DNA of 64,000 nt from Sediminibacterium soli (GTDB lineage: Bacteria; Bacteroidota; Bacteroidia; Chitinophagales; Chitinophagaceae). Positions 59,449-63,331 of the stretch are shown one piece after another; positions within the stretch are counted from its first letter, which is position 1, and every line of letters starts with the position of its first letter. The translations under genes and the position numbers were made by a program. The notes below the pieces were generated by a model. It saw nothing but the letters and a program-made list of their open reading frames with translations, was not told where the DNA came from and searched no databases. Location: positions 59,107 through 123,106 of the forward strand of contig NZ_JAACJR010000008.1 of the NCBI RefSeq assembly GCF_009939225.1, written 5' to 3'.

Positions 59449-62400
59449 ATGAAGATGTACCAAGTATACCTGCGGGTTATTTTGCTTACCGGTATTTTGA
59501 CCGGGAGCCTGGGTACCGGCCTCGCGCAGAACGGCGATCAGATACTGGACGGGATCGGTGAAACCGGAATGATTGCGCGGTATGTATTTAACGGCGATGC
59601 CCGCGACTGGTCCCGCAACAACCTGCACGCCAGGGTTCAGGGAAGCGAAAGCAGATTTGTGAACGACAGCCGGTTTGGAAGGGTTTTATCGCTGGCGGGC
59701 GACAGCAGTTCATTCATCACCATTCCCGGCGAAGCATTGACCGATCTGGAATCGCTGAGTATATCGGGATGGATCTACCTGCGATCCAAACAGCCCGGGC
59801 AGCGCTTTTTTGATTTCGGTAAAGATGCCGGCAAACATTTTTTTGCGGCTCCTGCGGGCACTGCAGAGCAGGAAGGTTACCAGGCACTGATCACATCGGG
59901 CAAAGCAAATAAGAATGGGGCGGTTGCGCCTGCTATCGAGCTGAACAAATGGGTTCATCTTGCCGTAGTGATAGACATACCTTCAAAATCAATCACCACG
60001 TATGTAGACAGCAAACCTGTTGCCGAGGCAAAAGATATCCCGCTGGAACTAACCGAAGTATTCGGTCAGCAACCGGGCGAGAAAATGCTTTATATCGGCA
60101 AATCCCTGACACCGGGAGATGCTTACCTGAATGCGATGGTACACGATTTTCGCATTTACCGTGTTCCGCTGAGCAACAGACAGGTGGCGGCCATTTATAC
60201 AAATGCCCAGAGAGGAAGAGGACTTAACGAAGGATCGGTGAATACCGGTGGCAGGCGTGTTGAAGACGAGCTTCCCCGCTTCTCTCCCACCGAAGCGCAG
60301 CTGTATAACACCTATCTTTTGCAGGTATCGGATGTGGAAGTGGAAACAGAAGCAGGCAGTCTGCCCCGGCTGCCCAGTTATGTGCCCGGAACTTACCGGG
60401 ACGATATGAAAGGCAAAGCCCCCAGGGTGCGCGTGGTATGGCCCGAAGCCACAGACAACAGCGCCGTGCTTACCCCGGGGCGTTACACCATCACCGGACG
60501 CGTTGCCGGAACCAGTTTTCAGCCAAAAGCTTTTGTTACCGTAAAAGCGGCGAAGAAACCGGTTGTGCCTGCTTTGAAACTGGCAACATTTGGACTGGGC
60601 AGGGTTTCACTGAAAACGGATGCCGGCGGACACGAGACACAGTTCATCGAAAACCGCAATAAATTCGTCAGCACGCTGGCAAAAACAGATCCCAACTCAT
60701 TTCTGTACATGTTCCGTCATGCTTTTGGCCAGAAACAACCTGAGGGCGCAAAGCCGCTGGGTGTATGGGACAGCCGCGATACCAAGCTGCGGGGTCATGC
60801 TACGGGTCATTATCTGTCGGCGATTGCACAGGCATATGCGAGCACGGGATACGATAAAACACTGCAGGCGAATTTCTCCGATAAGATGGCCTATATGGTC
60901 AATACGCTGTACGATCTGTCGCGGCTATCCGGCAAGCCGAAGGAAACGAACGGAACACATGTATCCGATCCTGCCGCCGTGCCCCCTGGCCCGGGCAAAA
61001 CCGCTTACGACTCGGACCTGAGTGATACGGGCATACGCAACGACTACTGGAACTGGGGCACAGGATTTATCAGCGCATACCCGCCGGATCAGTTCATCAT
61101 GCTGGAAAACGGCGCCAAGTACGGCGGGCAGAAAAACCAGGTTTGGGCACCGTATTACACGCTGCATAAAATCCTGGCCGGGCTGCTGGATGTATACGAA
61201 GTGAGCGGCAACCAAAAAGCGCTTGCCATTGCCTCGGGTATGGGCGACTGGGTGTATGCACGACTGAGCAAGCTGCCGACAGATACGCTGATCAAGATGT
61301 GGAACACCTATATTGCCGGTGAGTTTGGCGGTATGAATGAGGCCATGGCGCGGCTGTACAGAACCACGGGCAAAGCGGATCACCTGAAAACCGCGCAGCT
61401 GTTTGACAACATCAGGGTGTTCTTTGGCGACACGGCCCACTCGCACGGACTGGCCAAGAATGTGGATCTTTTCCGCGGACTGCATGCCAACCAGCACATA
61501 CCGCAGATAGTGGGCAGTATTGAGATGTACCGCGTTTCGCATAATCCCGAATACTACCGGATTGCCGATAATTTCTGGTACAAGATGGTCAACGATTATA
61601 TGTACAGCATCGGCGGCGTTGCGGGTGCGCGCAATCCCAACAACGCGGAATGTTTTATCAGTCAGCCCGGCACCTTGTACGAAAACGGTTTTGCCGCCGG
61701 AGGTCAGAACGAAACCTGCGCCACCTACAATATGCTGAAGCTGACCAGCGACCTGTTTCTTTTCGATCCACGCGCGGAGTTAATGGATTACTATGAACGC
61801 GGGTTATACAACCATATCCTTGCCTCGGTGGCGGAAAATACGCCTGCCAACACCTATCATGTGCCGCTCAGACCCGGCGCCATCAAACAATTCGGCAACC
61901 CGAATATGACCGGGTTCACCTGCTGTAACGGCACGGCGATAGAAAGCAACACCAAACTGCAGAATTCCATTTATTTCAAAAGCGGGAATGACCGGGCGCT
62001 GTACATTAACTTATACGTTCCTTCCGTGCTGGAATGGACAGAACGCAAGGTAACCGTGGAGCAAACCACGAGCTTCCCCAATGAAGACCAGACTACGCTT
62101 ACCATTCGCGGGAATGGAAAATTTGAGGTGCATGTGCGTGTGCCGGGCTGGGCTACAAAAGGCTTTTTTGTGAAGATCAACGGCAAAGAACAAAAGCTGC
62201 AGGCAAAGCCTGGTACCTACCTGAAACTATCCCGCAGCTGGAAAGACGGTGATAAGATAGAATTGAAAATGCCTTTCGAATTTCACCTGGAACCGGTTAT
62301 GGACCAGCAGAATATCGCCAGCCTGTTTTACGGCCCCGTATTGCTGGCCGCACAGGAACCCGAGGCCCGGAAAGACTGGCGTAAAATAACACTGGATGCA

Positions 62401-62529
62401 GGCGATATCAGCAAATCCATCAAAGGCGATCCGCAGCAGTTACAGTTCACCATTGATGATGTGATCTTTAAACCATTTTATGAAACCTACGGACGCCATT
62501 CTGTTTACCTGGATGTAAAATTGAAATAG
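59449..62529 (+). CDS. GH127-type beta-L-arabinofuranosidase with LamG and Ig-like domains
   Basis: A 1,026-residue secreted glycosidase. Signal peptide (to about 26, G-L-A-Q); LamG/concanavalin-like domain (about 38-262, A-R-Y-V-F-N-G-D, I-S-G-W-I-Y-L, M-V-H-D-F-R-I-Y-R); bacterial Ig-like domain (288-368, W-P-E-A...Y-T-I-T-G-R-V-A-G); then an (alpha/alpha)6 barrel with G-H-A-T-G-H-Y-L-S-A-I-A and W-A-P-Y-Y-T-L-H-K, E-C-F-I-S-Q-P-G-T-L-Y-E-N-G-F, Q-N-E-T-C-A-T-Y-N-M-L-K and F-T-C-C-N-G-T-A-I-E-S. The Cys residues and Glu in the last motifs form the Zn-coordinated nucleophile site of GH127. It probably releases L-arabinofuranose from plant glycoproteins or arabinan. Confidence 0.9.
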   Translation: MKMYQVYLRVILLTGILTGSLGTGLAQNGDQILDGIGETGMIARYVFNGDARDWSRNNLHARVQGSESRFVNDSRFGRVLSLAGDSSSFITIPGEALTDLESLSISGWIYLRSKQPGQRFFDFGKDAGKHFFAAPAGTAEQEGYQALITSGKANKNGAVAPAIELNKWVHLAVVIDIPSKSITTYVDSKPVAEAKDIPLELTEVFGQQPGEKMLYIGKSLTPGDAYLNAMVHDFRIYRVPLSNRQVAAIYTNAQRGRGLNEGSVNTGGRRVEDELPRFSPTEAQLYNTYLLQVSDVEVETEAGSLPRLPSYVPGTYRDDMKGKAPRVRVVWPEATDNSAVLTPGRYTITGRVAGTSFQPKAFVTVKAAKKPVVPALKLATFGLGRVSLKTDAGGHETQFIENRNKFVSTLAKTDPNSFLYMFRHAFGQKQPEGAKPLGVWDSRDTKLRGHATGHYLSAIAQAYASTGYDKTLQANFSDKMAYMVNTLYDLSRLSGKPKETNGTHVSDPAAVPPGPGKTAYDSDLSDTGIRNDYWNWGTGFISAYPPDQFIMLENGAKYGGQKNQVWAPYYTLHKILAGLLDVYEVSGNQKALAIASGMGDWVYARLSKLPTDTLIKMWNTYIAGEFGGMNEAMARLYRTTGKADHLKTAQLFDNIRVFFGDTAHSHGLAKNVDLFRGLHANQHIPQIVGSIEMYRVSHNPEYYRIADNFWYKMVNDYMYSIGGVAGARNPNNAECFISQPGTLYENGFAAGGQNETCATYNMLKLTSDLFLFDPRAELMDYYERGLYNHILASVAENTPANTYHVPLRPGAIKQFGNPNMTGFTCCNGTAIESNTKLQNSIYFKSGNDRALYINLYVPSVLEWTERKVTVEQTTSFPNEDQTTLTIRGNGKFEVHVRVPGWATKGFFVKINGKEQKLQAKPGTYLKLSRSWKDGDKIELKMPFEFHLEPVMDQQNIASLFYGPVLLAAQEPEARKDWRKITLDAGDISKSIKGDPQQLQFTIDDVIFKPFYETYGRHSVYLDVKLK

Positions 62530-62662: not shown

Positions 62663-63331
62663 ATGCCGCTTCCTGAAAATTACCTGGTTATTAAACGGTC
62701 CCTGTTACCCGGTGCGGGCAAAGGGCTGTTTACCAGGATCGCCATCAACGGGGGAACCCGCATTATCGAATACAAAGGGGTGATCAGAAAAAAAGTCAGG
62801 GAAGCGGATATGCCCTATGCATTTGTTGTGCGCCCGGGTTATTTGATCGATGCGAAAAATTACAAGGACGGTATTGCGCAGTTTGCCAATGATGCCACGG
62901 GAACCGGACAGTTAACCGGTGTTGACAATAACTGCAGGTATGTGCGCGACGGATTGAAAGTGTTTATCGAGGCAAAGAAAAACATCAGGGCCGGCGAAGA
63001 GCTCCTGGTATTTTACGGCAGGGGGTACTGGGTGGAGGAAGACGATACAAATGCCGCGGTCAAAAAAAATATTCATTTACTAACCCATAAACCGGATCGT
63101 ATGGCAACAGCAAAAAAGGCCGCTAAAAAAGCAGCGCCTAAAAAACCCGTAAAGAAACCAATGGCCAAAAAAACAGCGAAGAAAGCTGTTAAAAAAGCGG
63201 CGAAGAAAAAAGCTGCACCAAAAAAAGCGGCGAAGAAAGTGGTAAAAAAAGCAGCTCCTAAAAAAGCAGTGAAGAAAATCGCCAAAAAAGTTCCTTCCCG
63301 CAAAGGAAAAAGCGGAAAAACCGGCGGTTAA
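62663..63331 (+). CDS. SET-domain protein with histone H1-like Lys/Ala tail
   Basis: A 222-residue protein in two parts. Residues 1-125 form a SET lysine methyltransferase domain: S-L-L-P-G-A-G-K-G-L-F-T-R (13-25, SAM-binding start), I-I-E-Y-K-G, the pseudoknot strand F-A-N-D-A-T (74-79) with N-N-C-R-Y at 89-93, and G-E-E-L-L-V-F-Y-G-R-G (111-121) with the catalytic Tyr. Residues 147-222 are nearly all Lys, Ala, Pro and Val (K-K-A-A-P-K-K units), like histone H1-like nucleoid proteins of Bacteroidota and Chlamydia Hc2. The tail should bind DNA and may itself be a substrate. Met147 (63101) could also start a separate tail protein. Back-to-back with the next, convergent gene. Confidence 0.87.
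   Translation: MPLPENYLVIKRSLLPGAGKGLFTRIAINGGTRIIEYKGVIRKKVREADMPYAFVVRPGYLIDAKNYKDGIAQFANDATGTGQLTGVDNNCRYVRDGLKVFIEAKKNIRAGEELLVFYGRGYWVEEDDTNAAVKKNIHLLTHKPDRMATAKKAAKKAAPKKPVKKPMAKKTAKKAVKKAAKKKAAPKKAAKKVVKKAAPKKAVKKIAKKVPSRKGKSGKTGG

Follow-up and report, generated by a model that had tools for sequence, protein, structure and literature searches.

H1-like proteins rich in lysine, alanine and proline are known from elsewhere, with AlgP, BpH1 and Hc2 as examples, and the prokaryotic DNA-binding protein MC1 is not a Lys/Ala repeat protein. SET enzymes acting in trans on prokaryotic chromatin proteins are already known, as described in the accessible parts of two articles (PMC3980110, PMC2904774). 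According to the portion of the review available to us (PMC3980110), cpnSET of C. pneumoniae binds both Hc1 and Hc2, and its methylation of Hc1 is attributed there to Murata 2007. The same review reports that Go1-SET of Methanosarcina mazei methylates MC1-alpha in vitro. The first-pass annotation of the locus described here had cited a different chlamydial SET enzyme, NUE, as the methylase of Hc1. This attribution has to be corrected: in the available part of PMC2904774 NUE did not methylate Hc1, and cpnSET is the enzyme reported instead (PMC3980110). NUE was described there as methylating itself, on a peptide with K209/K210 near its own C-terminus (PMC2904774). In the available sections of these sources the chlamydial data on SET modification of the bacteria's own histone-like proteins are in conflict, and a SET domain that is physically tied to the H1-like protein of its family points to a substrate in a way that is directly testable in free-living bacteria.

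The gene reported here lies in the window, the 64,000-nucleotide stretch of Sediminibacterium soli DNA that we analysed, and combines both kinds of protein in a single chain (Table 1). Judged by the sections of the two articles available to us, it resembles the chlamydial systems in that a SET enzyme and H1-like proteins occur in one and the same bacterium, but cpnSET or NUE and Hc1/Hc2 are separate proteins, and neither a fusion nor an internal start is mentioned for cpnSET or NUE in those sections of PMC3980110 and PMC2904774. In the same partial account Go1-SET and MC1-alpha likewise pair a SET enzyme with a prokaryotic DNA-binding protein, but again as separate proteins. Among the literature titles and abstract openings covered, in which subscription journals are thinly represented, an in-cis SET/H1-like fusion that keeps the leader and start codon of its partner is undescribed.

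Table 1. Coordinates of the fusion gene and its parts in the window
Feature	Position	Strand	Evidence or remark
Whole open reading frame, SET part and tail in one chain	62663-63331	+	
SET domain, residues 1-123 (Pfam 19-119)	62663-63031	+	Profile match, fold, 53-sequence alignment
Linker, residues 124-146	63032-63100	+	
Remnant of the H1-like gene's 5' leader, within the linker	63068-63100	+	
Leader core ATTTACTAACCCATAAAC	63075-63092	+	
ACTAACC box	63079-63085	+	22 nt 5' of the internal ATG
In-frame ATG (codon of Met147) at which a free H1-like protein may start	63101-63103	+	
H1-like Lys/Ala/Pro tail, 76 aa, first residues MATAKKAAKKAAPKK	63101-63328	+	
C-terminal motif PSRKGKSGKTGG	63293-63328	+	

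The translated open reading frame matched the Pfam SET profile PF00856 with an E-value of 2.4e-10 (41.2 bits against a gathering cut-off of 22.4), and its N-terminal part has the SET fold, so that the N-terminal half described as SET-like by the first-pass annotation is indeed a SET domain. In an alignment of 53 sequences, residues N76, N90, I108, E113 and Y118 occupied invariant columns, and N76 and Y118 aligned with the corresponding Asn and Tyr of the solved SET structure 5kkl. We take Y118 to be the catalytic tyrosine and N76 to be the cofactor residue, that is, the Asn of the N-H motif. Where 5kkl has the histidine of this motif, the window protein has Asp77, which is found in at least 90% of the 53 sequences of this branch; given this replacement of the His after the Asn, SET activity should not be taken for granted. 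The same genome also encodes a tail-less SET paralogue (C11:604642) that is 48% identical.

The Lys/Ala/Pro tail of 76 residues, which the first-pass annotation had placed after an in-frame ATG at 63101 (Met147), is present, and its proposed H1-like nature is borne out by homology to a free H1-like protein of the same bacteria. When the tail was compared from Met147 onwards with the free H1-like proteins of the genus, that of its own genome included, all 15 starting residues (MATAKKAAKKAAPKK) were identical. The separate H1-like gene of this genome is located at C13:133226, approximately 11 kb past the fusion gene. The tail has this start and the upstream leader in common with the free H1-like proteins of the family and differs from them by its attachment to an enzyme and by its KGKSGKxGG end. 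The HC2 profile PF07382 did not match the window protein (P0001) or its tail at an E-value of 0.01; for two fused relatives it gave 26.0 bits (P0009) and 20.9 bits (P0080), both under the cut-off of 40.

The resemblance to the free gene extends into the DNA 5' of the internal ATG, which reads TTTACTAACCCATAAACCGGATCGT in the fusion and TTAACTAACCATTAAATCTAAAAAC in the free H1-like gene of the same genome, with ACTAACC 22 nt before the ATG in both. We collected 31 free H1-like genes of other genomes, chosen by the protein start MAT. ACTAACC was present in 26 of the 31 leaders, in 11 genera of the family by our count, 22-25 nt from the ATG and most often (15 leaders) at 23 nt; at this latter spacing the TAA of the box shares the reading frame of the ATG, hence only leaders with other spacings can be read through, among them the 22 nt of the fusion and of the free gene in its genome. 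A strongly conserved leader, TTTACTAACCATTAAAT, was also seen 22-25 nt before free H1-like ATGs across the family (L131-L200, L236; L229-L231, L234-L238).

A profile was built from the 31 leaders, leaving out the sequence of the own genome, and used for an ungapped scan of 95.8 kb of this genome. The window site came second both among 191,482 positions and among 3,303 ATGs, and the top-ranked site was the own free H1-like gene, at an offset equal to that of the window site. Shuffling the linker 20,000 times by codon and 20,000 times by base never gave a score as high as that of the window site. In a covariance search without filters on an 801-nt stretch the window site scored 9.2 bits (E 0.0023); the internal site was not reported by default cmsearch of the window with the leader model, nor was it among the seven sites found when the whole genome was searched with this model. 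The exact 15-base leader pattern occurred 11 times in 10 genomes, with eight occurrences 22-25 nt from an H1-like ATG and three elsewhere, compared to two matches for the control; it thus marked an H1-like start in eight of the 10 genomes and was near-unique in each of the 10.

Two other accounts of the leader were rejected. That it marks starts throughout the genome was not supported: ACTAACC was found five times on both strands of the 95.8 kb, two of them at H1-like starts. Nor was a structured RNA supported, as the Rfam search returned one match far under the cut-off and the internal start folds unremarkably (z -0.34). The promoter-like element TACTTTTA, which is present 5' of the free gene, was absent by eye before position 63070, which argues that the tail is a derived copy rather than an independent gene. 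A sigma-70 scan of the + strand of the SET part, of a kind that excludes Bacteroidota promoter types, found no promoter. Judged by these sequence comparisons, the DNA before Met147 is a remnant of the conserved 5' leader of the H1-like gene, and a fusion origin of the gene is strongly supported.

Given this origin, we propose that the gene of a bacterial SET lysine methyltransferase was joined in frame to that of an H1-like nucleoid protein and that the joining took in the leader and the start codon of the latter. The full-length product would most likely be a methyltransferase kept on the DNA by its Lys/Ala/Pro tail, while translation starting at 63101 would give a second product, the free 76-aa H1-like protein. 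The SET domain might then methylate H1-like lysines, either in its own tail, in the free form or in the paralogue, with the KGKSGKxGG end perhaps among the methylated sites. We assign a probability of roughly 0.5 to this model as a whole, namely a chimera giving a DNA-held methyltransferase and a free H1-like protein, with H1-like lysines as the substrate. As for its parts, tethering to DNA by the tail is probable and methylation of H1-like lysines is put forward more tentatively. The complete form of this idea, in which a nucleoid-bound chromatin-modifying enzyme and its substrate both come from one gene and the enzyme modifies the sequence common to them within its own chain as well as on the free form, seems unlikely to us. 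A fusion that took up and kept the leader and start codon of another gene represents a possible route towards two proteins from one gene, and the H1-like leader offers a new handle on the expression of a nucleoid protein.

The candidate internal start, which the first-pass annotation had also raised, gained weight from the retention of the methionine and from the H1-like gene's leader that precedes it. All 14 tail-bearing proteins have Met at the tail start, followed by Ala in 13 and by Ser in one. This conservation is found despite a variable linker, as the distance from the SET Trp to the tail Met ranges from 13 to 34 residues and none of the 16 columns preceding the Met is invariant, and despite SET domains that differ by up to approximately one change per column (tree path lengths). 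Furthermore, we scored start contexts with a model trained on 56 ORF starts from the same genome. Among 517 internal ATGs, 63101 reached the 99.0 percentile, and it surpassed 82% of the 56 ORF starts as well as the annotated start. M167, another internal Met of the window protein, also scored high (97th percentile), so the A-rich codons of the tail may inflate this score.

The leader could also be traced in the relatives, albeit through leaders that were inferred from peptides and in proteins that are not independent of one another. In nine of the 14 fused proteins the linker peptide is compatible with ACTAACC at 21-22 nt from the Met. Two reading frames are involved, one giving LTHK (22 nt) and the other TNP or TNL (21 nt), which suggests that nucleotides rather than a peptide were retained. 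When the linkers of the first nine fused proteins were shuffled, ACTAACC appeared at a spacing of 18-25 in 119 of 4,500 cases. The linkers of P0076 and P0079 cannot encode the box, and in P0008 its one possible position is 9 nt from the Met. The remaining half of the leader, CATTAAA, is compatible with the linkers of P0009 and P0080 at a distance of 17 nt from the Met, a spacing at which it stands in 14 of the 31 free leaders. Taken from sequence, internal initiation at 63101 is moderately supported.

A tenable, if doubtful, alternative is that the gene has a single product, a DNA-tethered SET enzyme, with the leader and the Met as a fossil of the fusion and the internal ATG hardly used. Indeed, the window copy of the leader has drifted, with CCGGATCGT in place of the A-rich run that precedes the ATG in the free gene. 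It also lacks A at -3 and -6, positions at which A favours initiation in Flavobacterium johnsoniae according to the available part of PMC6847099, and retains A at -10 to -12. Moreover, a second source of H1-like protein would be unneeded because a free H1-like gene exists in the same genome. What speaks against this explanation is the start context of 63101 and a methionine kept in 14 of 14 fused proteins across so much SET and linker divergence. We prefer a gene with two products.

To place the fusion among its relatives, we combined several searches, which gave the window protein and at least 13 database relatives, i.e., at least 14 proteins with the fused layout. The first protein search scored only candidates sharing most words and brought in some Lys/Ala-rich proteins without SET; it identified eight fused proteins (P0002-P0009). 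A search with the SET part only returned 56 proteins, and a search with the SET alignment added at least five more fused proteins (P0076-P0080) among the best 120 of 3,582 relatives. In a SET tree of 55 rows and 127 columns, which omits the truncated P0007 and locus L128, the fused proteins formed clades of 11 and 2 (support 100/99 each), and a single clade of all 13 was not rejected (AU p 0.309). In a second tree of 40 rows that includes L128, nine fused rows and L128 formed one clade (93/91).

L128 (G462:C181:2400-2786) belongs to the same genus. It shares the SET clade and the C-terminal motif with the window protein, but it ends in GKGILLGKSGKTGG after the SET domain and has no H1-like tail; it extends 22 residues past query position 124, and the tail Met is absent. 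As L128 groups with the fused proteins, the H1-like part was either lost in it or inserted before an existing motif, and since it has the SET domain and the C-terminal motif alone, at least one relative either can do without the tail or never had it. On present sequences, a single origin followed by loss of the tail from L128, a single insertion ahead of a C-terminus already in place, and two origins are all possible histories of the fusion. The stand-alone small SET proteins of Bacteroidota share the branch, with identities of up to 58%, and differ in their C-termini.

Among 394 genomes of the family, 189 matched the query at an E-value of 0.001, many by the tail part alone. We read 121 SET loci in family genomes other than the window's own; 96 had at most 35 residues past query position 124 and none had a tail starting MATAKK. 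Within the genus, 12 of 147 genomes matched at an E-value of 1e-12 (seven by the SET domain, five by the tail part), and the fusion was found in one of the 147, namely the window's own. In 396 genomes drawn from the order there were 32 matches at an E-value of 1e-20, with no further fusion in the loci read; of six listed matches that gave no new locus, five were already in the set and G608 was left out. A scan of named-species genomes gave 11 related SET loci with a different short basic tail, which came from Cyclobacteriaceae and related groups. The first-pass annotation had considered that the tail might be missing from close relatives, and this is true in part: all of the at least 14 fused proteins carry it, and L128 and the 121 family SET loci do not. 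A common operon of SET and H1-like genes was not supported: Lys/Ala/Pro-rich ORFs were found at only four of 125 SET loci (own copies included, two of them skipped). These were a SWIB-like H1-type ORF 395 nt downstream of the SET gene (L028), other Lys-rich ORFs 144 and 188 nt from the SET gene (L090 and L099, respectively) and, in L018, the SET protein itself.

This distribution bears on a second explanation, in which the SET head acts on another protein, or is inactive owing to Asp77, and the tail serves localisation only. Asp77 in at least 90% of the branch would fit such a head, and so would the lack of an H1-like tail in L128 of the same clade and at all 121 family SET loci, because of which the ancestral substrate need not have been the tail. 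However, N76, N90 and Y118 are invariant, and tail and SET domain stay joined across the 14 fused proteins. We regard this explanation as improbable.

Near the C-terminus, 10 of the 14 fused proteins carry GKSGK and 11 of the 14 carry P[ST]xKGK; P0005, which may be cut short, has neither. None of 168 other proteins examined had GKSGK or GKGGK within the final 30 residues. A scan of 12,451 ORFs from the loci retrieved showed the C-terminal motif in the window protein and L128 alone, and none of the free H1-like ORFs of these loci carried it. In L128, EATPDAKNGGKGILLGKSGKTGG comes after the SET domain, the H1-like part being absent. The presence of the motif on this tail-less protein rules it out as a mark of the H1-like part and indicates that it goes with the SET clade instead. 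The KGKSGKxGG end, which in our view resembles histone-tail peptides, is a candidate for the site that the SET domain methylates or docks on.

Other SET loci do have lysine-rich tails with KVNGKK repeats or KATGKK, and the tail could accordingly be one more low-complexity basic extension, unconnected to any H1-like gene. This is very unlikely and largely refuted by the identity over 15 residues combined with a homologous leader spaced as in the own free copy; on the same two grounds we rejected a generic low-complexity tail as the full account. A VNGK-repeat Lys-rich tail was observed on SET proteins of other lineages (L031, L033, L034, L038, L042, L047, L054, L058, L071, P0039, P0088 and P0108). 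P0011, a distant SET protein with post-SET cysteines, likewise ends in a Lys/Ala tail; it has SET and H1-like composition in common with the window protein, but its tail start lacks the Met. This distant case suggests that the combination of SET and H1-like composition has more than one origin.

That an assembly or gene-calling artefact joined two genes is hardly credible: although a one-base error in the A8 run at 63062-63069 would shift the frame, an in-frame fusion in 14 proteins of several sources argues strongly against it. The A8 run lies immediately 5' of the leader remnant, and as seen by eye, one base gained or lost in it would make the SET ORF stop at the TAA of the leader, near the internal ATG. 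Slippage at this run could thus give SET and tail as separate products. The adjoining gene (59449-62529) encodes a GH127-type beta-L-arabinofuranosidase with laminin-G-like and Big_4 domains and has no evident connection to the SET gene. Lastly, a group of ORFs (L132, L133, L140, L183, L187 and L028:2277-2642) combines an H1-like N-terminus with what we presume, from its appearance, to be a SWIB/MDM2-type domain, and three of these (L132, L133 and L140) share the ACTAACC-type leader box.
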